In this document: positions 3,549 to 55,001 of the stretch, in pieces | Position numbering within the stretch: the first letter of the stretch is position 1 | Layout: every line of letters starts with the position of its first letter | Made by a program: the position numbers and the translations under genes | The notes under the pieces: generated by a model | Database searches by the model: none | Told to the model about the DNA's origin: nothing | Seen by the model: the letters and a program-made list of their open reading frames with translations, nothing else | Assembly (NCBI RefSeq): GCF_018326265.1 | Contig: NZ_AP023360.1 | Span: forward strand, 4,931,501-4,995,500 | Direction: 5' to 3' | DNA: 64,000 nucleotides | Origin: Catellatospora sp. IY07-71 | GTDB lineage: Bacteria > Actinomycetota > Actinomycetes > Mycobacteriales > Micromonosporaceae

Positions 3549-4611
3549 CGGCACGCTGCGCCGGCTCGTCGACGAGCCCGACGGCGTGACCGCCCCCGAC
3601 CGCGCCCACGTCACCGCCTGCCCGGCGTGCCAGACCGCACTGGTGCGCGCCCGGCTCGACGCGGCGCTGGCCGCCTCGGTGCTGGACCTGACCGTCGACG
3701 TCGACGTCGCCGAGGGCTGGCGTCGCCTCTCGACCGCCACGGCCGGTGCCTCTACCACGGCTGCGGCTGCCGGGCGGCGACGCCGGATCGCGCTGCGCAG
3801 CCCCGTGGTCGCCGTCGCCGCCGTCGCCGCCCTGGTGGCGGGGGCCGGGGTCGCCGCTGCCACGGACTGGCTGCCGATCTTCCGCGCCGAGCAGGTCGTC
3901 CCGGTGACCGCGTCCGATGCGGACCTGGTCAGCCTGCCGGACCTGTCCGCGTTCGGCGAGTTGCACGTCACCGAGAAGCCTGAGCTGCGCAGGGTCGCCG
4001 ACGCCGCCGCAGCCGAGCAGGCCACCGGGCTGACCGTGCCGCGGGTGGCCGGGCTGCCGCGCGGCGTGACCGGGGAACCGGTCTACCGCGTCAGCGGCCC
4101 GGTGAGCGCCGAGTTCACGTTCTCCGCGGCGAAGGCCGCGCAGTCCGCCACCGCGACCGGCCACGCGCTGCCGCCCGCGCCGCCGGGCCTGGACGGGAGC
4201 CGCTTCCGGCTGACCGCCGGACCCGGCCTGCTCGCGGTCTGGTCGAAGGGCCGGGGTGTGCCGACGCTGATGCTGGCCCGTGCCGTCGCGCCCACCGCGT
4301 ACTCGACCGGCGTGCCGTTCGCGACCGCACGGGACTACCTGCTGTCGCTGCCGATGCTGTCCGAGGACATCGCCGCCCAGCTGCGCGGCTTCACCGGCGA
4401 CGGCACGACGCTGCCGCTGCTCGTCTCCGGTGAGCGGATGACCAGCACCACCGCCGACGTGAACGGCGTGACCGCTACGGTGCTCACCTCGCGCAACGGG
4501 GTCATGGCGGGGGTGGTGTGGGTGGACGGTGGTGTCGTCACCGCGCTGGCCGGTTCGTCGACCCCGGACGAGCTGCTGGCGGCGGCCCGCGAGCTGAGGT
4601 GGGACAGGTGA
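3532..4611 (+). CDS. Anti-sigma factor-like membrane protein with HxxxCxxC motif
   Basis: A 359-residue protein beginning inside the sigma gene. Residues 1-55 hold a zinc-type anti-sigma signature HVTACPACQ (HxxxCxxC, about residues 24-31). A basic stretch AGRRRRIAL is followed by a single transmembrane helix at about residues 88-110, then a roughly 240-residue extracytoplasmic part. Known ZAS anti-sigma factors hold an ECF sigma at the membrane and release it on a signal. Overlap with the sigma gene implies coupled translation and a cognate pair. The outer domain resembles no family I recognise; it may sense the cargo of the ABC exporter encoded next. Its stop overlaps the GTG of the ATPase gene (GTGA). 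Confidence 0.82.
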   Translation: MRHPTDGTLRRLVDEPDGVTAPDRAHVTACPACQTALVRARLDAALAASVLDLTVDVDVAEGWRRLSTATAGASTTAAAAGRRRRIALRSPVVAVAAVAALVAGAGVAAATDWLPIFRAEQVVPVTASDADLVSLPDLSAFGELHVTEKPELRRVADAAAAEQATGLTVPRVAGLPRGVTGEPVYRVSGPVSAEFTFSAAKAAQSATATGHALPPAPPGLDGSRFRLTAGPGLLAVWSKGRGVPTLMLARAVAPTAYSTGVPFATARDYLLSLPMLSEDIAAQLRGFTGDGTTLPLLVSGERMTSTTADVNGVTATVLTSRNGVMAGVVWVDGGVVTALAGSSTPDELLAAARELRWDR

Positions 4612-5560
4612 GTCTCGACACCGCTGCGCGGCGGCCCGAGCAGGCCGCTTCCGCGGCCGCGGTGTGGTGCTCGGGTCTGCGCAAGCGATACCGCAGCCGG
4701 GTCGCGGTCGACGACGTGTCGTTCACCGTCGGCCGGGGGAGGTGGTCGGGCTGCTCGGGCCGAACGGCGCCGGGAAGACGACCGCGATCAAGATGCTGCT
4801 CGGCCTGGTCCGGCCCGACGCGGGCGAGGTGCTGCTGCTCGGGCGGCCGGGTGCCGACCCACGTGCCCGCACCCGGGTCGGCTACCTGCCGGAGCTGTTC
4901 CGCTACCAGCCCTGGCTGACCGCGTCGGAGGTGCTGGCCCTGCACGTCCGGCTCGCCGGGGTGGACATCCCGGCCGCCGAGCAGCGGGAGAGCCTCGCGG
5001 CGGTCGGCCTCGCGGACCGGGCCGGCGACCGGCTGGGCGGCTTCTCCAAGGGTATGCAGCAGCGCCTGGGCCTGGCCGTGGCGCTGGTCGCCCGACCGGA
5101 GCTGATCGTGCTCGACGAGCCGACCAGCGCGCTGGACCCGATCGGCCGCGCCGACGTGCGCGACCTGGTGCTGGAGCTCAAGGCCCGGCAGGTCGCGGTG
5201 CTGCTCAACTCGCACCTCATCGGCGAGGTCGAGCGGGTCTGCGACCGGGTCGTCATCCTCGACAAGGGCCGGGTCGCGGCGGCGGGCACCCTCGCCGAGC
5301 TGCTCGGGCAGAACGAGCTGCGCCTGCGGCTGGACGCGGTGAGCCCGCAGGCCGAGCAGCGGCTCGCCGCCGCCGGGCCGGTCAGCCGGGACGGGGACGC
5401 CGTCACGGTCCAGCTGCCTGCCGACCTCGACCCCGCCACCGTGCCGGACCTCGTCGCCGACCTGGTCGGCCTCGGGGTACGCGTGCACGCCGTCGAACCC
5501 GGACGGATCAGCCTGGAGCAGCGGCTGCTGGACATCCTGCGCCACGAGGAGCACGCATGA
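4608..5560 (+). CDS. ABC exporter ATP-binding protein, interrupted by a one-base frameshift
   Basis: The natural start is GTG 4608, overlapping the anti-sigma stop (GTGA). From there the frame reads a normal ABC N-terminus (LRKRYRSRVAVDDVSFTVG). In the five-G run 4735-4739 the frame is lost; the rest of the domain (EVVGLLGPNGAGKTT Walker A, FSKGMQQRLGLA signature, LIVLDEPTSALDP Walker B, LNSHLIGE H-loop) continues in a second frame to the stop at 5558-5560. One extra G would restore a continuous protein of about 317 residues. An in-frame GTG at 4664 would give a 298-residue product with a nonsense N-terminus lacking the A-loop strand. This is either a real mutation or a homopolymer sequencing error. 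It pairs with the permease at 5557. Confidence 0.85.
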
Positions 5561-6396
5561 CCGCCAAGATCGTCCTCACCGTCGCCGCGCTCACGTTGCG
5601 GGAGGTCGCCCGCCGCCGGGTGCTGCGCGCGCTCGCCGTGCTGACGGCCGTGCTGCTGGGGCTGAGCGCGTGGGGGTTCTCCCGGATCGACGCCGAGTTC
5701 GGCGGCCTCACCAGCGGCGAGGCGCTGATGGCGGCCACCATCGTGCTCAACCTGGTGATGTTCGGCCTCAGCCTGATCGCCGCGCTGGGCACCGCGTTCC
5801 TCGCCGGGCCCAGCATGGCCGGTGAGATCGAGTCGGGGATCGCGCTGGCGGTGCTGGCCCGGCCCGTACGCCGTGCGGCGGTGCTGCTGGGCAAGTGGCT
5901 GGGGCTGGTGGCGTTCGGCAGCGGGTTCGTGCTCGCGGCCGGGTTCGCCCAGCTGCTCATCGTCCGGTTCACCACCGGTTACCAGTCCCCGCAGCCGGTG
6001 GCCGGGCTGGTGCTGCTCGCGTTCCAGACGACCGTGCTGCTGACCCTCGGGCTGCTGCTGTCGACCGCGATCTCGCCGATGGCCTCGGGCATCGTCGCCG
6101 TCGGACTGTTCGGCGCGGCCTGGGTCGCGGGCGTCGTCGGGGGAGTCGGCACCGCGCTCGGCAATGACAGCGTGGCCCAGGTAGGCACGGTGTCCCGGAT
6201 GATCCTGCCGACCGACGGCCTGTGGCGCGGCGCGATGTACGCGTTCCAGGACCCGATCCTGCTGTCGCCGCAGCTCATCGGGCACCCGCTGGTCGGCGAT
6301 GCGCCGCTCACCGGGCCGTATCTCGGCTGGGCCGCGGTCTGGGTCGCCCTCGTGGCCGGGCTCGCGGCACTGGCCTTCCAGCGGCGCGACCTGTGA
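5557..6396 (+). CDS. ABC-2 type transporter permease
   Basis: A 279-residue membrane protein starting inside the stop codon of the ATPase gene (ATGA overlap). About six hydrophobic segments are visible: ALAVLTAVLLGLSAWGF, IVLNLVMFGLSLIAALG, GLVAFGSGFVLAAGF, AGLVLLAFQTTVLLTLG, IVAVGLFGAAWVAGVVG and a C-terminal helix near residues 255-272. GPSMAGEIESGIALAVLARP is the usual cytoplasmic loop of ABC-2 permeases. With the ATPase it forms an exporter; substrate unknown. The sigma/anti-sigma genes in front suggest that the operon controls its own expression in response to an envelope signal. Confidence 0.88.
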   Translation: MTAKIVLTVAALTLREVARRRVLRALAVLTAVLLGLSAWGFSRIDAEFGGLTSGEALMAATIVLNLVMFGLSLIAALGTAFLAGPSMAGEIESGIALAVLARPVRRAAVLLGKWLGLVAFGSGFVLAAGFAQLLIVRFTTGYQSPQPVAGLVLLAFQTTVLLTLGLLLSTAISPMASGIVAVGLFGAAWVAGVVGGVGTALGNDSVAQVGTVSRMILPTDGLWRGAMYAFQDPILLSPQLIGHPLVGDAPLTGPYLGWAAVWVALVAGLAALAFQRRDL

Positions 6397-11669: not shown

Positions 11670-14393
11670 ATGCTCTACGGCCGAGCTGCGGAGCAGGAGA
11701 CGGTCGAACGGCTGCTGCGCGACGTGACGAGCGGTCGCCCCCGAGCCCTGATCGTGCGCGGCGAGGCAGGCATCGGCAAGTCGGCGCTCCTGGAGTACGC
11801 GGCGGCGAGCACACCGGCGCGGGTGCTGCGGGTGACCGGTGTCCAGTCCGAGGCCGACCTGCCGTTCGCGGCCCTGCACGTGCTGCTGCGCCCGCTCCTG
11901 GACCGGGTTGCGGCACTGCCGCCGCAGCAGTCGGACGCCCTGCTGGGTGCGCTGGGGCTGGGCTCCACCAACCGCGGGGACCGGTTCCTGGTCGGACTGG
12001 CGACGCTCAGCCTGCTCGTCGAGGTGTCGGCGACGACACCGCTGTTGTGCCTGATCGACGACGCGCACTGGCTGGACGGCGAATCGGCCGACGCCCTGCT
12101 GTTCGCCGCGCGGCGGCTCGGCGCCGAGAGCGTGGCCATGCTGTTCGCCACGCGCGAGTCCGAACGGGACTTCTCCGCACGCGGCCTGCCGGACCTGCGG
12201 TTGGGACGGCTGGAACCCGAAGCGGCCGGCCGGATCGTCGCCGAGCACGCCGCGGACCTGCCCCCGGCCGTGCGCGACCAGCTCGTGGCGGAGGCGCAGG
12301 GCAATCCGCTGGCGCTGGTGGAGCTGCCCTCGATGCTCACCGCCGAGCACCGCTTCGGCGGCAACGCGCCGCTGTCGCTCTCCTTCGGCACCGCGACGCC
12401 GGTGCTCGACCGGGTCTTCACCGGGTTCCGGGACCGTGTCGAGGAGCTGCCCGAGGCCACGCGGGCCTGCCTGCTCGTGGCCGCCCTCGACGACCGCGGC
12501 GATCTCGGTGTGCTGGCCGCCGCGCTGGAACCGCTCGGCGCCCGGCTCGACGACTTCGCCGCCGCCGAACGGGCGGGACTGGTCCGGGTCGGGGTGTCGA
12601 GTGTGGCGTTCCGCCACCCGCTGGTGCGCACCGCGGTGGTGCTGGCCGGTGATGTGGCGGCCCGGATGGCCGCGCACCGTGCCCTGGCCGCGGCGGTCGA
12701 CGGCGACCGGCGCGCGTGGCACCTGGCGGCCGTCACCCCGTGCCCCGACGACGCGGTGGCCGACGACCTGGAAGACCTGGCCCTGCGCGCCCAGCGGCGC
12801 GGCGGGCAGGCGGCGGTGTCGGCGGCCTACGCCCGCGCGGCCGAGCTGTCCGCCGATCCCGCCGTGGCCGCGCGCCGCCGGATCGCCGCGGCGTCGGCGG
12901 CGATCGAAGCGGGACTGTGGCGACGCGCCGGTGAACTGGTCGGTGAAGCCCGGCGCCGGACCGTGCCGCTGGCGCCCGCCGTCCTGGCCGAGCTCGCGAT
13001 GGTCCGGGCCAAGCTGGAGGCCGAGGCGGGGCGGCCGCTCGCGGCGGTGCGGCTGCTGCACGAGGCGGCGGCCAAGGTCACCGAGCTGCCGACCCTGCTC
13101 TCGCTGCTCAGCGTCGCCAGCTACCTCACCTGGTCGAGCGCACGTCATCCCGACCAGCTCGCACTGGCGCGCCGCACCGAGGAGCTGAGCCCGCCGGGCG
13201 ACGGTCCCGCCGCCGCGCTGCGCGGCATCAACAGCGGATTCCGGCGGATATTGGAGGGCGACGCGGTGACCACCTACAGCTATCCGAAGCTGCGGGACGG
13301 CGTCACCTCCATGCCGGTCGAGCTGCGCATGCTCGTCGTCCAGCACGCCCTCGTCCGCGCCGACTCCGACGGCATGTCCGACTACGCCGAGGCGATGGCC
13401 GAGGAGTGCCGCACCCAGGGACGGCTCGGTCGCCTGCCCCAGGCCTTGACGGTCCGGGCCATCGCCGAGATCCTCGGCGGCCGGCACCGCTCCGCGCGGG
13501 CCACCGTGGCGCAGGCCGCCTCCCTCGCCGCCGACGTAGGGCAGCCCATGTGGTCCGGCTATCTGGCCGGCATGCATGCCTGGCTGGCCGCGGCCGCGGG
13601 CGCGGAGCAGGAGTGCCTGGCGTCGGGAGCCGAGGCGCTGCGCGACGCCGAACGCCGGGCGTGGATGCCCGGCGGCTGCTGGGCCGAGTACGCGCGCGTG
13701 CTGCTCGACCTCGGTGCGGGCAGGTACGAGGCCGTCCTCGAGCGGCTGGATCACGCGGCGACAGGGCCGTCGCGGCACGCGTTCGTGTGGCGGTACACGT
13801 GGCCCGACTACGTCGAGGCGGCCGCGCGAGTGGGGCAGCCGGACCGTGCGGTGCCGCTGCTGAGCCGCTACGCGGAGTGGGTGACCGCCACCGGCCAGGA
13901 CGGGCCGCGTGCGGTGCTGGACCGCGCCCGGGCGCTGCTCGCCGCCGACGACGAGGCCGACGCCCACTACCAGCGGGCACTGGAGCTGCACAGCCGGGCC
14001 AGGCAGCCCTTCGACGAGGCCCGCACCCGCCTGCTGTACGGGGAGTGGCTGCGCCGCCAGCAACGCCGCGCCGCCGCCAGGGCGCAGCTCGAGGCCGCCC
14101 GCGAAGCCTTCGATGCCCTGGACGCGGCGCCGTGGTCGGCCCGGGCGGCGACGGAACTGCGCGCCGCCGGCGTCTCACTGCCCGACCGCGCCGGCGCCGG
14201 CGACCTGCTGGCCGAGTTGACCGCGCAGGAGCTCCAGGTGGTCCGCCTCGCGATGACCGGAGCGTCCAATCGCCAGATCGGCGCGCAGCTGTTTCTCAGC
14301 CCGCGGACGGTCGCCTCCCACCTCTACAAGGCGTTCCCCAAGCTGGGTGTCACCTCGCGCGCGGAACTGTCCCGGCTGGCGCCGCTCAGCTAG
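11670..14393 (+). CDS. Large LuxR-family regulator with AAA ATPase domain
   Basis: A 907-residue LAL-type (large ATP-binding LuxR) regulator. Start ATG 11670 follows AGGAG (11661-11665). Walker A is GEAGIGKS (residues 31-38) and Walker B is LCLIDDAHW near residue 128. A long helical, TPR-like middle region follows, and a LuxR-type HTH closes the protein (LTAQELQVVRLAMTGASNRQ, LSPRTVASHLYKAFPKLGV, about residues 848-900). LAL proteins activate pathway genes when ligand and ATP are bound. Position downstream of the hydrolase and facing the redox cluster at 15-17 kb suggests that it controls one of these units. The 3' end overlaps the convergent gene by eight bases. Confidence 0.92.
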   Translation: MLYGRAAEQETVERLLRDVTSGRPRALIVRGEAGIGKSALLEYAAASTPARVLRVTGVQSEADLPFAALHVLLRPLLDRVAALPPQQSDALLGALGLGSTNRGDRFLVGLATLSLLVEVSATTPLLCLIDDAHWLDGESADALLFAARRLGAESVAMLFATRESERDFSARGLPDLRLGRLEPEAAGRIVAEHAADLPPAVRDQLVAEAQGNPLALVELPSMLTAEHRFGGNAPLSLSFGTATPVLDRVFTGFRDRVEELPEATRACLLVAALDDRGDLGVLAAALEPLGARLDDFAAAERAGLVRVGVSSVAFRHPLVRTAVVLAGDVAARMAAHRALAAAVDGDRRAWHLAAVTPCPDDAVADDLEDLALRAQRRGGQAAVSAAYARAAELSADPAVAARRRIAAASAAIEAGLWRRAGELVGEARRRTVPLAPAVLAELAMVRAKLEAEAGRPLAAVRLLHEAAAKVTELPTLLSLLSVASYLTWSSARHPDQLALARRTEELSPPGDGPAAALRGINSGFRRILEGDAVTTYSYPKLRDGVTSMPVELRMLVVQHALVRADSDGMSDYAEAMAEECRTQGRLGRLPQALTVRAIAEILGGRHRSARATVAQAASLAADVGQPMWSGYLAGMHAWLAAAAGAEQECLASGAEALRDAERRAWMPGGCWAEYARVLLDLGAGRYEAVLERLDHAATGPSRHAFVWRYTWPDYVEAAARVGQPDRAVPLLSRYAEWVTATGQDGPRAVLDRARALLAADDEADAHYQRALELHSRARQPFDEARTRLLYGEWLRRQQRRAAARAQLEAAREAFDALDAAPWSARAATELRAAGVSLPDRAGAGDLLAELTAQELQVVRLAMTGASNRQIGAQLFLSPRTVASHLYKAFPKLGVTSRAELSRLAPLS

Positions 14394-49378: not shown

Positions 49379-50119
49379 TCAGTAGTAGCTGCCGGGCTGC
49401 GGTGCGGGAGCCGGGGCAGGGGCGGCGGCGGGAGCATAGGAGGGCACCGGTTCCCCGGCGGGGCGGGTCAGCCGCACCCAGGTGAACGACTGCCAGCCGC
49501 CCGACGGGGTCCGGTGCTGCTCCTGCTCGGCCTGCAAGAGCTGGAAGCCGGGAAACTGCTCGGCCAGCGCCTGCATGCCGTAGCGGGCCACGGGCAGGCC
49601 GGAGCAGGAGTCCGGGCCGTCCTCGGCGAACGTGCCGATGACGGCCTGCCCGCGGGGCGCGAGCGCGGCGGCGAGCACGCGGCGGTAGCGGTCGCGGTCG
49701 GCCGGGTCGGTGAGGAAGTGGAACACGGCACGGTCGTGCCAGAAGTCGTACCGCCGCAGCGGCGACCAGGTCAGCAGGTCCCGGGCCATCCAGTGCGCCG
49801 CCATGGCGCGCTCGCCCAGCCGCCTGCGGGCCGCGGCCAGCGCCGCCTCCGACAGGTCGAGCACCGTCACGTCGGTCATGCCGCGGACGAGCAGCTCGTC
49901 GACGAGAGTGGAAGCACCGCCGCCGGCGTCGAGCACCGAACTGCCGGGGCGTGCCCCGCCGGCCTCCAGCAGCCTCAGCGACATTGCGGGCGTGGGCTGG
50001 TACCAGCTGACGTTCTGTGGATCATTTCGGTCGTATACGGCCTGCCAGTGCTCGGCAGTGCCGGAGAGCTGTGGCACGTGATCAGCATCGCACCGTGCCT
50101 GGTCGGACGGAGCGACCAC
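49379..50119 (-). CDS. Class I SAM-dependent methyltransferase
   Basis: A 246-residue protein with a Rossmann methyltransferase core: motif I VLDAGGGASTLVDEL (about residues 62-76), acidic residue in VTVLDLSEAAL, motif IV-like FWHDRAVFHFL. The leader DPQNVSWYQPTPAMSLRLL is typical of a group of small methyltransferases related to thiopurine methyltransferase-like proteins. The C-terminus is Pro/Ala-rich. The start could be GTG 50119 or GTG 50077; the latter begins just before the conserved part. Substrate unknown. It is divergent from the protease operon at 50310. Confidence 0.88.
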   Translation of the reverse strand: MVAPSDQARCDADHVPQLSGTAEHWQAVYDRNDPQNVSWYQPTPAMSLRLLEAGGARPGSSVLDAGGGASTLVDELLVRGMTDVTVLDLSEAALAAARRRLGERAMAAHWMARDLLTWSPLRRYDFWHDRAVFHFLTDPADRDRYRRVLAAALAPRGQAVIGTFAEDGPDSCSGLPVARYGMQALAEQFPGFQLLQAEQEQHRTPSGGWQSFTWVRLTRPAGEPVPSYAPAAAPAPAPAPQPGSYY

Positions 50120-50309
50120 TCCTTACCGACGGCGGCCGTGGATGTGGTATTGATCCGTCCGGCCTGATCACGGCGAGTGGTCCGTGGCCATGCCGTCACC
50201 CGGTCAGTCTGTCTTCGCCCGCAAGCCGTTTTCAGGGTTCCGGTATCCAGCGATCGCCACCACACTCTCTTGTGGAACGAACGGGGTTACGGCCGGAGGG
50301 GACGAGGTC

Positions 50310-51293
50310 ATGGCGGAGAAGGTCGTCAGCGTGAACAAGCACGGGTTCAGCGTCAAGAACACGCACGGCCTGCCGTTCAGGCCGGTGTCCGCGTTCGTGC
50401 CCGCGCCGCGCCGGACTCCGGCGAGTCGTGCGCCCGACCTGCGGCGGCCTGTCGTCGCGGTCCTGGACACCGGCGTCGACCCCGCCCACCCCTGGTTCCA
50501 GGGCGATCCGGGCGACCCGGTGCTCCTCGACGCGTACGACGAGGGCTGGCCGCGTCCCGCGATCGCCGACTACGGCCCCCACCACGGCACGTTCGTGGCC
50601 GGTGTGGTCCGGCAGCATGCGCCGGACGCGATCATCCTGTCGGTCACGCTCGACCGCGGCAAGGACGGGCGCATCGCCGACCGGCAGATCCTCAAGGCGC
50701 TGACCCACCTGTACGACCAGCAGCACAGGCTCATCGACGTCATCTGCCTCGCGATCGGCTTCCGGTCCCTGAACGCCGCCGACGAGTGCTACAAGGAGGA
50801 GGTGCGGGCCGCCGTCGACCGGCTGGCCGAGCGCGGCACGATCCTGGTCGCCGCCGCCGGCAACTACGGCACGCCCGAGCCGGTGTACCCGGCCGCGTTC
50901 GCTTCCAAGGCGGCGCTGGTGGCCTCGGTCGGCGCGGTGACCGTCAAGGGGCACCTGGCCGACTTCAGCCGGGACGAGGATTGGGTCACCCGCCACTGCG
51001 TCGGTGTCGACGTGTTCAGCGCCACGCCGCTGGCATCCGGCGGCGCGCTCTCGACGCTCGACGACATGGCGGTCCACGACGACAACGAGCAAACCGCGCT
51101 GACCGGCTTCGGCGTCGGCAGCGGCACCTCGTACGCCGCCGCGGCCTACGCCGGGATGCTGGCACAGGCGCTGCTCGACCAGTCCGGTGTGGCGCCCTTC
51201 GACACCTCGACCCCCCGGGAGCGGGCCGAGCGCGTGCTGAACGCCCTCACCACGCCCGACCCGCACAGGGCCGGGAACGGGGAGGCCGCATGA
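50310..51293 (+). CDS. Subtilisin-like (S8) serine protease without signal peptide
   Basis: A 327-residue subtilase with the full catalytic triad: Asp53 in VAVLDTGVD, His92 in HHGTFVAGV, Ser274 in GVGSGTSYAAAA, plus the oxyanion Asn in VAAAGNYG. There is no signal peptide, propeptide or membrane segment: the sequence begins with a short polar stretch (MAEKVVSVNKHGFS), so it should act in the cytoplasm, unlike most actinobacterial subtilases. ATG 50310 is chosen for the GGAGGGG tract eight bases upstream. It is the first gene of a four-gene coupled operon; its stop overlaps the sigma-factor ATG (ATGA). A substrate within the same operon (sigma, unknown protein or CHAT) is plausible. Confidence 0.92.
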   Translation: MAEKVVSVNKHGFSVKNTHGLPFRPVSAFVPAPRRTPASRAPDLRRPVVAVLDTGVDPAHPWFQGDPGDPVLLDAYDEGWPRPAIADYGPHHGTFVAGVVRQHAPDAIILSVTLDRGKDGRIADRQILKALTHLYDQQHRLIDVICLAIGFRSLNAADECYKEEVRAAVDRLAERGTILVAAAGNYGTPEPVYPAAFASKAALVASVGAVTVKGHLADFSRDEDWVTRHCVGVDVFSATPLASGGALSTLDDMAVHDDNEQTALTGFGVGSGTSYAAAAYAGMLAQALLDQSGVAPFDTSTPRERAERVLNALTTPDPHRAGNGEAA

Positions 51294-51889
51294 CGGCGGC
51301 GGCCGGAGCGGACACCGTCCCGGCCGAGGGCCGCGCGGCGGTGCTGGCCGGGCTGCTGGAGAAGGCGCGCGAGGGCGACCGCGGCGCGCTGGACGCCATC
51401 GTGCGCGAGGTCAACCCGCTGCTGTGGCACGTCGCCCGCGCGCAGGGCCTGGCCGCCGAGCCCGCCGCCGACGTGGTGCAGACGACGTGGCTGGTGTTCG
51501 TACGCCACCTCGACACCATCCGCACCCCGCAGGCGCTGCTGGGCTGGCTGGCCACGACCGCCCGGCGGGAGGCGTGGCGGCTGCTGCGCCAGGAACGCGC
51601 CGGCGCCGACCCGGACTCCGAGGTGGTGGAGCACGCGCTGTCCCCGGCGGCCGACGTGGACGAGCAGGTGCTCACCCACGAGCGCGACCGGGCGCTGTGG
51701 CGCGCCCTGCAGGCGGTGTCCGACCGGTGCCGCCGCCTGCTGCGCGTCGTGGCGCTGGTGGACCGGCCCGACTACGACGTGCTGGCCGAGGCCATGGGCA
51801 TGCCCCGGGGCAGCATCGGCCCCACCCGGGGCCGCTGCCTGGCGAAAGTACGCGAGCTGCTGCTCGCCGATCCCACCTGGAGCCGGTGA
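51290..51889 (+). CDS. ECF-type RNA polymerase sigma factor in a protease operon
   Basis: A 199-residue sigma-70 family factor. Region 2 is LLWHVARAQGLAAEPAADVV, QTTWLVFVRHLDTI, WLATTARREAWRLLRQ (about residues 45-105). Region 4 is RALWRALQAVSDRCRRLLRV, YDVLAEAMGMPRGSIGPTRG (about 140-195), including the SIGPTRGR recognition helix. It overlaps the protease stop by four bases and its own stop overlaps the next ATG (TGATG). No anti-sigma factor of a known kind is present, so control may be through the proteases or the 161-residue protein. Targets unknown. Confidence 0.92.
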   Translation: MTAAAGADTVPAEGRAAVLAGLLEKAREGDRGALDAIVREVNPLLWHVARAQGLAAEPAADVVQTTWLVFVRHLDTIRTPQALLGWLATTARREAWRLLRQERAGADPDSEVVEHALSPAADVDEQVLTHERDRALWRALQAVSDRCRRLLRVVALVDRPDYDVLAEAMGMPRGSIGPTRGRCLAKVRELLLADPTWSR

Positions 51890-52374
51890 TGACCGACCCG
51901 GACGGCCTGCTCGACGACCTCGACGCGGACATCCTCGACGCGCTGGCGCGGACCTGGGCCGCGGTGGACCCGCCCCCGGCCGACCTGGACGACCGCGTCT
52001 CGTTCGCGCTGCGGCTGGCCGACCTGGACGTGGAGGCGGCGCGGCTGCAGCACGACGCGCTGGTCGGGTCGGGCGCGCGGGCGGCCGAGCACGCGCGCAC
52101 CATCACCTTCGACTGCGACATCCTGAGCCTGATGGTGTCGGTGCTGCCCGGCGACGACGGGGTACGCGTCGACGGCTGGCTGGCCCCGCCCGCGCCGCTG
52201 CAGGTGGAGCTGCGCACCGCCGCGGCCGGGCCTGACGGGCAGGACGTGATCCACACCGCGCAGGCCGACCAGGCGGGCCGGTTCGTGTTCACCGGCATCC
52301 CGCACGGGCTGGCCCAGCTGCTGGTGCACGGGGCGGGGCTGCGCACCGTGGTGACACCCGGCATCGTGCTGTGA
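51889..52374 (+). CDS. Unknown 161-residue protein between sigma factor and CHAT protease
   Basis: No family recognised. The N-terminal half is helical and acidic (LLDDLDADILDALARTWAAV, LDDRVSFALRLADLDVEAAR). The C-terminal half (about residues 90-161) has a beta-sandwich rhythm: GVRVDGWLAPPAPLQVELRT, VIHTAQADQAGRFVFTGIPH, LAQLLVHGAGLRTVVTPGIV, like carboxypeptidase-regulatory or SpaA-like modules. There is no signal peptide or membrane segment. It starts in the sigma stop (TGATG) and ends in the CHAT start (GTGA), so it is translated in fixed ratio with both. It could be the sigma partner/inhibitor or a protease substrate; this is inference. Confidence 0.85.
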   Translation: MTDPDGLLDDLDADILDALARTWAAVDPPPADLDDRVSFALRLADLDVEAARLQHDALVGSGARAAEHARTITFDCDILSLMVSVLPGDDGVRVDGWLAPPAPLQVELRTAAAGPDGQDVIHTAQADQAGRFVFTGIPHGLAQLLVHGAGLRTVVTPGIVL

Positions 52375-54896
52375 GCGACCGGCCGCGCGCCGCCGAGCTG
52401 CACGCGGCCGGGGTCGCGGCCACCAACGACATGCGCCCGGCGCTGGGCGCGCGGCGGCACCGGGCGGCGCTGCGGGTGCTGGACGACGCCCCGCCCGGCG
52501 GCGACCCGGCCGAGGACGCCGCGCTGCGCGCCCGGATCCTGGTCAGCCTCGCCTACGCGGTCTCGGAGCTGGGCCGCATCGCCGAGGGCCTGGGCCACCT
52601 GGACGAGGCGGAGCGGCTGCTGCCGCCCCAGCAGCGCGGCACGCTGCACGGGCAGCGGGCGGTGATGCTGCGCCGCACCGGCCGCGACGACGAGGCGCTG
52701 GCCGAGTACGGCCGGGCGCTGCGGGTGCTCGACGAGCGCCGGGAGCCCCGCGACCTGGCCCGGGTGCTGCTGAACCGGGCCGTGCTGCACCTGCACGCGC
52801 CCCGCCCGGCGGCGGCCCGTGCCGACCTTGGCCGTGCCGCCCAGGTGGCGCAGCGCCACGGCTTCGGCCTCATCGCCGCCAAGGCCCGGCACAACCTGGC
52901 CCTGCTCGACCTCGCCGCCGGTGACCTGCCCAGGGCGCTGGGCGCGTTCGCGGCCCTGTCCGTCGAGTACACCCGCTCCGCGCCCGGCGTGCTGCCCCTG
53001 CTCGGCCTGGACCGGGCCCGGGTGCTGCTGGCCGCGGGCCTGTTCCGGGAGGCCGACGACGATCTCGCGGCGGCGCTGGCGCGGCTGCGTGCCCAGGGCA
53101 TGGGCCAGGACGAGGCCGAGGCGCTGCTCGCCCGCGCCGAGGCCGCCCTGCTGGCCGGCCGGCACGCCGACGCGCGGCGCTGGGCGGGGCAGGCCCGGTC
53201 CTGCTTCCTGAAGCGGCGCAACGGGCGCTGGGCGGCGCTGGCGGACCTGGTCGACCTGCGCGCGGCGTACGCGACGGGCGGGCCGGACCGGGTGCTGCTG
53301 CGCCGGGCGAACACCCTCGCCGCCCGCCTGTCCGAGCTGGCGCTCGACGAGGACGCGCGGGTGGCGGGGCTGCTCGCCGCGCGGGCGAACGCCGCATTGG
53401 GCCGGACCGCCGACGCCGTGGACGCGCTGCGCCGCCACGGCGTGCTGCGCCACGGCGACCGGCTGGACACCCGGGTGCTTGGCCGGCTGGCGCGGGCCGA
53501 GGTCGCCGCCGCGTCCGGCCGGGCCGGCACCGCCGCGCGGCAGCTGACCACGGGCCTGGCCGAGCTGCACCGCTACCGCGCCCAGGTGGGCTGCCTCGAC
53601 CTGCAGACCGGCGCCGCGGTGCACGGGCGGGACCTGGCCGGGGCCGGACTGCGCCGCGCGCTGGACCGGGGCCGCCCGGCCGAGGTCTTCGCCTGGGCCG
53701 AGCGCTCCCGGGCGCAGGCGCTGCTGCTGCCGCCCGTACGCCCGCCGGCCGACCCCGAGACCGCCGCCGCCCTGGCGGCCCTGCGGCAGGTCCGGCTGGC
53801 CGTACGCGAGGCCGAGCGCGCCGGGCGGCCCGCCGGTGCGCAGCGCTCGCACGCCGCCGAGCTGGAGCGGCGCATCCGGCACCGTTCGTGGACGCTGGCC
53901 GGGCCGGGCACCGGCGGCGCACCCGCTCCGATGGGCACCGTCGCGCAGGCCCTCGGCGACGCCGCGATGGCCGTCTACCTGCACGACGGCCCGGCGCTGC
54001 GCGCGCTGGTGCTGGCCGGTGGCACGGCGCGGCTGGTCGACGCGGGCCGCCCGGCCGCGGCGGCCGAGATCGCGCTGCGGCTGCGCGCCTCCCTGGACGC
54101 GCGGGCCGGGCGCGCGCTGCCACCTCGGCTGGCCGACGCGGTGCTCGCGTCCGTGCGCCGCGACGCCGCCGAGCTGGCCGCGGCGGTGCTCGGGCCGGTG
54201 CTCGCCGTCGCGGGTGACCGCGACCTGGTGCTCGTGCCGACCGGTGAGCTGCTGACCGTCCCGTGGAGCCTGCTGCCCGGCGCCGCCGGCCGGCCGGTCA
54301 CCGTGGCCGCGTCCGCGACCAGCTGGTACACGGCGCGGCAGCGGGCTTACGGCGAGCCGGGCCCGGCCGGTCCGGCGCTGCTGGTGGCCGGGCCGGGCAA
54401 CGACCGGGCCGAGGCGGAGGTGCACAAAATCGCGCGGTGCCACCCGGGCGCGCGGGTGCTCACCGGCCCGGCGGCGACGGCGGCAGCGACCCTGGCGGGC
54501 TGCGACGGCGCAGCTCTGCTGCACGTGGCCGCGCACGGCAGGCATCAGGGCGAGAACGCGCTGTTCTCCGCGTTCGAGCTGGCCGACGGCCCACTCATGG
54601 GCTATGACCTGCAGCAGCTGTCCGTCGCGCCCCGGGTGGCCGTGCTGTCGGCCTGCGAGCTCGGCCTGGCCGACGTGCGGCCCGGCCACGAGTCGGTCGG
54701 GCTGAGCACCGCCCTGATAGCGGCCGGGACCGCGACCGTGGTGGCGAGCGTCAGCCGGGTCGCCGACGACGTCGCGATGCACGTGATGACGGGCTTCCAC
54801 CGGCGGCTGGCCGCGGGTGCCGCCCCCGCCGCCGCCCTTGCCGCCGCGGCGGGCGAGACCGAACCGGCCGGGTTCGTCTGCTTCGGGGCGGGCTGA
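52371..54896 (+). CDS. TPR-CHAT protein (caspase-like protease)
   Basis: An 841-residue cytoplasmic protein. Residues about 20-480 are TPR-like helical repeats (GRIAEGLGHLDEAERLL, TGRDDEALAEYGRALRVLDE, RHNLALLDLAAGDLPRALGA). A coiled-coil-like stretch follows (about 465-505), then the C-terminal CHAT domain (about 570-841) with the caspase-type dyad: His722 in LLHVAAHGRH and Cys762 in VAVLSACELGL. The last strand is PAGFVCFGAG. CHAT proteases (separase/caspase relatives) are known from type III-E CRISPR, gasdermin loci and other bacterial conflict systems. GTG 52371 overlaps the previous stop. A degraded copy of its C-terminal strand follows at 54966-55001. Confidence 0.92.
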   Translation: MSDRPRAAELHAAGVAATNDMRPALGARRHRAALRVLDDAPPGGDPAEDAALRARILVSLAYAVSELGRIAEGLGHLDEAERLLPPQQRGTLHGQRAVMLRRTGRDDEALAEYGRALRVLDERREPRDLARVLLNRAVLHLHAPRPAAARADLGRAAQVAQRHGFGLIAAKARHNLALLDLAAGDLPRALGAFAALSVEYTRSAPGVLPLLGLDRARVLLAAGLFREADDDLAAALARLRAQGMGQDEAEALLARAEAALLAGRHADARRWAGQARSCFLKRRNGRWAALADLVDLRAAYATGGPDRVLLRRANTLAARLSELALDEDARVAGLLAARANAALGRTADAVDALRRHGVLRHGDRLDTRVLGRLARAEVAAASGRAGTAARQLTTGLAELHRYRAQVGCLDLQTGAAVHGRDLAGAGLRRALDRGRPAEVFAWAERSRAQALLLPPVRPPADPETAAALAALRQVRLAVREAERAGRPAGAQRSHAAELERRIRHRSWTLAGPGTGGAPAPMGTVAQALGDAAMAVYLHDGPALRALVLAGGTARLVDAGRPAAAAEIALRLRASLDARAGRALPPRLADAVLASVRRDAAELAAAVLGPVLAVAGDRDLVLVPTGELLTVPWSLLPGAAGRPVTVAASATSWYTARQRAYGEPGPAGPALLVAGPGNDRAEAEVHKIARCHPGARVLTGPAATAAATLAGCDGAALLHVAAHGRHQGENALFSAFELADGPLMGYDLQQLSVAPRVAVLSACELGLADVRPGHESVGLSTALIAAGTATVVASVSRVADDVAMHVMTGFHRRLAAGAAPAAALAAAAGETEPAGFVCFGAG

Positions 54897-54941: not shown

Positions 54942-55001
54942 ATGCCGCGCGGCAGCGACCAGATCACGCCTGTCGGATTCGCCTGCTTCAGGGCGGGTTG
55001 A
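54942..55001 (+). pseudogene. Remnant duplicating the CHAT C-terminus
   Basis: In the same frame as the CHAT gene and 70 bases beyond its stop, 54966-55001 reads TPVGFACFRAG then TGA, against EPAGFVCFGAG then TGA in the CHAT gene; the identity continues for four bases past both stops. The open frame from ATG 54942 is only 19 codons. It looks like a leftover of a tandem duplication of the CHAT 3' end. A tiny expressed peptide cannot be excluded. Confidence 0.5.

Follow-up and report, generated by a model that had tools for sequence, protein, structure and literature searches.

We analyzed a 64,000-nucleotide stretch (here referred to as the window) from the genome of Catellatospora sp. IY07-71, a single contig of 8.6 Mb. 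It contains an operon of four overlapping genes, which encode an S8 subtilase, an extracytoplasmic function (ECF) sigma factor, a small protein of 161 residues and a caspase-like CHAT protease with tetratricopeptide repeats (TPR). The features of the locus are listed in Table 1. The four-gene block is real and conserved, and it was found in many actinobacteria.

Table 1. Features of the operon in the window and of the adjoining gene
Feature	Positions	Strand	Properties and basis
Promoter-like GTATC-N17-CTCT, proposed sigma target (autoregulation)	50243-50268	+	One mismatch to GTATC-N17-CTCC
S8 subtilase	50310-51293	+	327 aa; PF00082 Peptidase_S8, E 1.4e-24
ECF-type sigma factor	51290-51889	+	199 aa; Sigma70_r2, 5.4e-9; NCBIfam sigma70-ECF, 3.9e-16; PDB ECF sigma factors
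Small protein, proposed soluble anti-sigma factor and protease substrate	51889-52374	+	161 aa; gene context, AlphaFold2
Small protein: predicted N-terminal helices (residues 10-26 and 33-44), putative binding site for sigma	51916-52020	+	AlphaFold2 model
Arg64 codon of the small protein, candidate cleavage site	52078-52080	+	Conservation, low-pLDDT linker
TPR-CHAT caspase-like protease	52371-54896	+	841 aa, GTG start; CHAT, 9.5e-32
CHAT catalytic His722 codon	54534-54536	+	Alignment of relatives
CHAT catalytic Cys762 codon	54654-54656	+	Alignment of relatives
Divergent methyltransferase adjoining the operon	49379-50119	-	PADLOC mad2, E 2.1e-12, probably generic

Re-reading of the sequence confirmed the overlapping junctions (ATGA, TGATG and GTGA) that an initial annotation had reported. 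The catalytic residues of the subtilase (Asp53, His92 and Ser274) and of the CHAT protease were likewise intact as described. None of the four window proteins has a clear membrane segment, with top 19-residue hydropathy values of 1.03 to 1.76. Two Pfam matches fell below the cut-off: TPR_12 in the CHAT protein just missed it (E 6.7e-7, 29.8 bits against 30.1), and CarboxypepD_reg matched the small protein at E 0.0051.

Relatives of the operon were collected in two directions. The small protein had matches in 58 of 150 genomes of the family and, used as a profile, in 121 of 394 genomes of the class; 60 family and 40 class matches, chosen by hand with weak ones among them, gave 100 loci. A further 80 loci belong to the best 80 of at least 106 sigma factor relatives. 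Some of these 180 loci (numbered with the prefix L) are truncated at contig ends, so that real absences may be fewer than counted, and two pairs are duplicates (L044 and L097, L058 and L125).

Among the 100 loci collected with the small protein, the sigma factor was present in 96, CHAT in 92, S8 in 87 and all four genes in 82. In the opposite direction, the small protein was present in 75 of the 80 loci, CHAT in 63, S8 in 51 and the complete set in 49. After removal of the duplicates, S8 was found in 136, CHAT in 153 and all four genes in 129 of 178 loci. The gene order was less conserved: among 176 loci the sigma gene came first in 89 and S8 in 60, while CHAT was divergent in 27. Wherever S8 and CHAT stood, the sigma gene was located immediately 5' of the small-protein gene and in the same orientation in 173 of 177 cases; this is partly by construction, since sigma served to pick 80 of the 180 loci, yet its presence in nearly all small-protein-picked loci is not.

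Alignment of 141 S8 relatives showed Asp53 in 106 (35 gaps), and His92, Ser274 and the oxyanion residue Asn185 in 140 each (1 gap). His722 and Cys762 of CHAT were each present in 150 of 160 relatives, with 10 gaps and no substitution. Gene content and catalytic residues were conserved, so that neither of the outcomes by which the initial annotation would have been refuted (homologues mostly alone or in unrelated contexts, catalytic residues not conserved) was observed. A putative paralogue of the small protein in its own genome was rejected, as this second match (L002, E 0.004) falls in a histidine-kinase-like frame.

The AlphaFold2 model of the small protein (mean pLDDT 86.9) consists of two N-terminal helices, a low-confidence linker (pLDDT 63 in the block of residues 61-70) and a beta-strand domain with weak likeness to carboxypeptidase regulatory-like or PA1324-like domains. 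Arg64 in the linker is an arginine in 172 of 177 relatives, and the surrounding linker positions are variable. The region of the second helix is shorter in three loci lacking the sigma gene, by 4 residues in L060 and L064 and by 13 in L066. This loss suggests that the helices hold the sigma factor. Since the sigma gene directly precedes it and since the helix is shortened or gone in these three loci, the small protein is probably the partner of the sigma factor. Pfam and NCBIfam searches returned no anti-sigma domain match (zinc or class I anti-sigma).

In the AlphaFold2 model of the CHAT protein (mean pLDDT 89.7) a TPR-like helical solenoid (approximately residues 1-450) is followed by the CHAT domain (598-827). 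The top Foldseek matches were a ciliary central-pair protein, human separase (9hn5_A, E 9.2e-13, TM 0.49/0.32), the transmembrane anti-sigma factor DdvA and Csx29 (7y9x_B, E 5.0e-11, TM 0.37/0.42); none of these matches reached a TM-score of 0.5. Separase shares the combination of helical solenoid and caspase-like domain, whereas the CHAT protein is bacterial, smaller and encoded in an operon. By sequence, the CHAT family profile found Csx29 chains at E 6e-4 in the CHAT domain; the NCBIfam csx29 model, which has a cut-off of 300 bits, gave the window protein only 11.6 bits (E 0.086).

The DdvA match (8rot_A, E 5.2e-12, TM 0.32/0.30) raises the thought that the TPR part itself might touch the sigma factor. 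Furthermore, by eye, the 3' end of the CHAT gene (GFVCFGAG-stop) is echoed 105 bases downstream as GFACFRAG-stop (54975-55001), an echo that a tandem-repeat search did not call.

A paired-word search of the regions upstream of the operons led to the bipartite motif GTATC-N17-CTCC. Perfect copies at a spacing of 17 were present in 26 of 89 sigma-first regions, compared to 0, 1, 4 and 0 at spacings of 15, 16, 18 and 19. We trained a matrix on 43 of the sigma-first regions and used a counting cut-off of 15. Outside the training set, sites at a score threshold of 14 were found in 22 of 61 S8-first regions (reverse strand: 6 of 61) and in 7 of 27 divergent regions (reverse strand: 0 of 27). A site that reaches score 15 lies within 1100 bases upstream in 69 of 176 loci, training loci included, which is approximately 30 times the density elsewhere; counted by clusters at 70% sigma identity, the motif was present in 39 of 112. 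The site in the window scores 10.6, which is below the cut-off, with -4.6 for the next best in approximately 1 kb upstream. It is situated in an 88-base stretch of which 82 bases are identical in the sister locus L033, and outside this stretch the agreement falls to 7 of 30 and 14 of 32 bases. The exact variant occurs only once in the genome. Autoregulation is the natural reading of such a motif upstream of the operon, with the sigma factor presumably using it.

Two further patterns were rejected. The form GTATCWG-N15-CTCYT had matches in 23 of 30 genomes (51 hits compared to 19 for the reversed control, many of them intragenic) but was absent from the genome of the window and its sister, and no genome-wide regulon was drawn from it. 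The pair CCAAC-N16-AGCC, seen in 14 S8-first regions, seemed to belong to the coding sequence of related S8 genes.

Copies of the motif were also observed at other places. In 12 of 180 loci (L037, L105, L107, L111, L113, L116, L119, L132, L135, L161, L177 and L178) one lies 6-56 bases past the CHAT match. Folding of nine of these regions showed strong hairpins downstream, in many cases within approximately 150 bases as judged by eye, which would suit a short RNA; Rfam had no match in the nine loci. Behind the motif copy directly after CHAT, L132 and L178 encode small proteins (12132-12467, 112 aa, and 4420-4734, 105 aa, respectively) without a Pfam family at E 0.01. In L094 the motif precedes a HopA1-family protein (4645-5601, Pfam HopA1 E 3.8e-14) that adjoins the sigma and small-protein genes, and in L202 it stands ahead of one protein as well. 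Similar ATPase proteins several kb off the module are preceded by it in L163, L165 and L168, the one scanned (L163) being of the LuxR type. L156 contains two pairs of sigma and small-protein genes with a matrixin in between, which is preceded by the motif, too.

The second protease of the module need not be a subtilase, as papain-like or trypsin-like proteases can replace it. Of 42 loci lacking S8, 9 had such a gene, compared to 1 of 138 loci with S8 (Fisher p 8e-6, relatedness ignored). Four of the nine replacement loci are from Cellulomonas and five from hosts that we take to be Pseudonocardiaceae. The trypsin-like genes were labelled by weak Trypsin_2 and NAL1 matches. The motif preceded 5 of 5 trypsin-like and 2 of 5 papain-like genes, compared to 11 of 458 unlabelled neighbours.

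The S8 protein of the window represents a short form. At least 150 open codons lie ahead of the catalytic Asp in 97 of 108 relatives, as judged from open-frame lengths rather than confirmed start codons. Between this N-terminal stretch and the catalytic domain, tandem repeats (here named tags) were found in 36 of 105 linkers and in 0 of 105 shuffled ones (three shuffles each). The period was six in 32 of the 36 tagged proteins, with units such as NPFTRT, HPITGG, NPYATG, FPYHSA and GWGDGI. Trypsin-like proteases carry their tags near the C-terminus, for example the PFTE repeats in Cellulomonas. The copies of a tag differ at synonymous sites; therefore, the peptide is what is kept.

In Knoellia sinensis the unit GWGDGI is common to S8 and an unrelated trypsin-like protease. 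The 4.0-Mb genome contains the unit 10 times, 6 times in S8 and 4 times in the other protease, and nowhere else. Searching 11 further genomes with one tag each placed 76 of 78 matches, by coordinates, at the protease of the module. These were 20 of 20 at the S8 gene for P(F/Y)HSAF in five genomes from a single genus of the same family as the window, 12 of 14 at S8 in four Microbacterium genomes (two strays), and 44 of 44 in two Cellulomonas genomes, where the matches of each genome cluster within a single short stretch at the trypsin-like gene. When S8 was compared with the small protein, sigma factor or CHAT protein of its own locus, only four stray four-letter matches to tag letters turned up.

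Taken with the gene context, these data are best read as a proteolysis-gated, autoregulated ECF sigma switch which resembles the ECF54 group by context and would work as a relay similar to Csx29, Csx30 and CASP-sigma but without CRISPR. We would give this reading an even chance. The most economical model would be that one protease processes the 161-residue protein to release the sigma factor. The small protein would bind sigma via its N-terminal helices and hold it silent. A trigger sensed by the TPR part would activate CHAT, which would then cut the small protein, with Arg64 of the flexible linker as a possible site. The freed sigma factor would transcribe its own operon from GTATC-N17-CTCC and, in other genera, presumably further protease genes. 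The subtilase, or its papain-like or trypsin-like substitute, would serve as the second, downstream protease, and its tags might be bound by the TPR solenoid or cleaved by CHAT.

According to PMC10028731, Csx29 cleaves Csx30, which inhibits CASP-sigma. The CHAT model matches Csx29 of this type III-E system (CASP, Craspase), whereas the module described here has a second protease in the operon, an actinobacterial host and no Cas match among the neighbours scanned. As to a relative of Csx30, a PDB search with the small-protein profile up to E 5 gave three chains, of which none bears the name Csx30. The idea that cleavage of an anti-sigma factor frees an ECF sigma factor is shared with release of the RseA/DegS type, from which the module differs in that its proteins lack an evident membrane segment. 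If the favoured reading is true, the relay of one CRISPR subtype would be a special case of a widespread, CRISPR-independent actinobacterial circuit. A sigma group for which no experiments were found would become testable, with a promoter, a candidate anti-sigma factor, a candidate cleavage residue and tagged proteases named. Furthermore, the sharing of tags by unrelated proteases would amount to a novel wiring of protease cascades.

Several observations weigh against the sigma switch. With respect to gene content, 5 of the 80 sigma-picked loci lacked the small protein and 17 lacked CHAT, some of them cut at contig ends. A PDB fold search with the small protein gave nothing at E 0.001 or better and no known anti-sigma fold. 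The three loci with a shortened helix belong to one genus and probably reflect one event; L197 retains the helix without a sigma gene, and gaps of at least 4 residues in the helix region occur in 4 of 173 small proteins that have the sigma factor. Mutual information between small protein and sigma (132 loci) was not focused in the helices (0.0066 compared to 0.0059 of pairs above z 3.5). Regarding the motif, 107 of 176 loci lack a site at score 15, and the reverse strand of sigma-first regions also scores (18 of 89). Within 500 bases upstream, counts at spacing 17 with at most one mismatch (6 of 61 S8-first and 1 of 27 divergent regions) were not clearly above shuffles. The stretch conserved with L033 is broader than the motif itself, and in the genome of the window GTATC-N17-CTCYT had 5 matches compared to 4 for the reversed control, which gives no indication of a regulon beyond the operon there. 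The TM-scores of the CHAT model to Csx29 and separase were both below 0.5. The protease replacements come down to approximately two lineages, and the profiles were built from the same loci. Finally, the S8 protein of the window carries neither the N-terminal stretch nor tags; the window therefore holds a reduced member.

The tags allow an extension of the sigma switch, which we put forward tentatively: a CRISPR-free TPR-CHAT protein would free its own sigma factor, and this sigma factor would induce interchangeable, unrelated proteases bearing a species-specific tandem tag, which TPR-CHAT would itself read. If so, an intracellular bacterial proteolytic cascade with transcriptional positive feedback would be spread through actinobacteria. 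A zymogen cascade would explain the same repeats differently. Here the TPR part would bind the tags of the second protease and CHAT would activate it by cutting them, the small protein would be a protease inhibitor or adaptor, and the sigma factor would only boost expression. The tag positions in S8 (between the N-terminal stretch and the catalytic domain) and in the trypsin-like proteases, the unit common to two unrelated Knoellia proteases and the concentration of tag matches at the module's protease all fit such a cascade. However, 69 of 105 S8 proteins are without a scored tag, as is that of the window, and the operon is kept all the same. Moreover, the sharing of a tag is limited to one genome and possibly due to gene conversion between adjacent genes. 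We consider a zymogen cascade rather unlikely.

To the initial annotation no system composed in this way was known, but the gene context has been published. A 2022 review (PMC8999054, citing Casas-Pastor 2021 and Huang 2015) states in its passage on ECF54 that carboxypeptidase, subtilase and CHAT genes surround these sigma factors, with an actinobacterial model member (Geodermatophilus). On the basis of this context, and naming no experiment for the group in that passage, it proposes regulation by proteolysis without an anti-sigma factor. The neighbouring proteases would accordingly degrade sigma itself and keep it inactive. The likeness to the module is one of context: an ECF sigma gene without a classical anti-sigma gene, with subtilase, CHAT and carboxypeptidase-like proteins nearby in actinobacteria, the carboxypeptidase-like match being the one below the Pfam cut-off. 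In contrast to the review, the small protein here looks like a partner of sigma. It is probably also the "carboxypeptidase" of the published context, and its weak CarboxypepD_reg match indicates a regulatory-type fold, not a peptidase. Additionally, sigma and small protein occurred together in 10 of 80 sigma-picked loci in which S8 and CHAT were not found, some of these being cut at contig ends and one having a papain-like gene. Degradation of sigma itself is an unlikely explanation.

The module is therefore already catalogued as a gene neighbourhood, and the mechanism is described here as a proposal. The openly accessible literature, outside of which most subscription papers and preprints lie, contained no experimental study of module, promoter or tags. 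To the ECF54 description our analysis adds the promoter motif, the protease replacement and the tags. New are the bipartite motif recurring before the operon and other protease genes, the position of sigma directly before the small protein and the helix shortening or loss in three sigma-less loci of one genus, together with the most surprising observations, the protease exchange and the species-specific tandem tags. Caspase systems with ECF sigma genes, but of different composition, are described in PMC8195603.

A conflict role was the other half of the initial proposal of a proteolytic signalling or conflict module. CHAT proteases serve in abortive-infection and conflict systems; here the proteases would respond to phage attack by killing or arresting the cell, with the module under the control of the sigma factor. 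This background, the analogy to Csx29 and a weak match of CHAT to BovA (E 0.019) speak for such a role. In PADLOC searches the subtilase also matched a subtilase profile (E 3.8e-11), and the sigma factor and the small protein had no match. However, eight of nine flanking proteins in the window were without a match, the ninth being the methyltransferase of Table 1. Among 27 neighbours scanned at other loci (7 of the 8 largest and 20 family representatives), 7 had PADLOC matches, which we attribute to generic ATPase, UvrD-helicase and DNA-binding parts; a weak CARF-type match (E 5.6e-6) was among them. No Cas effector was found among these 9 and 27 neighbours, arrays and the whole genome being outside this search. 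Where flanking families recur, this seems to reflect local synteny among related species. No convincing clustering with defence genes, as the initial annotation had suggested looking for, was seen among the neighbours scanned, and a conflict role appears improbable, while the conserved unit of two proteases and a sigma factor stands. A chance overlap of four neighbouring genes, for which nothing but the high-GC setting speaks, is refuted by the counts, since their co-occurrence is kept across families and in several gene orders.

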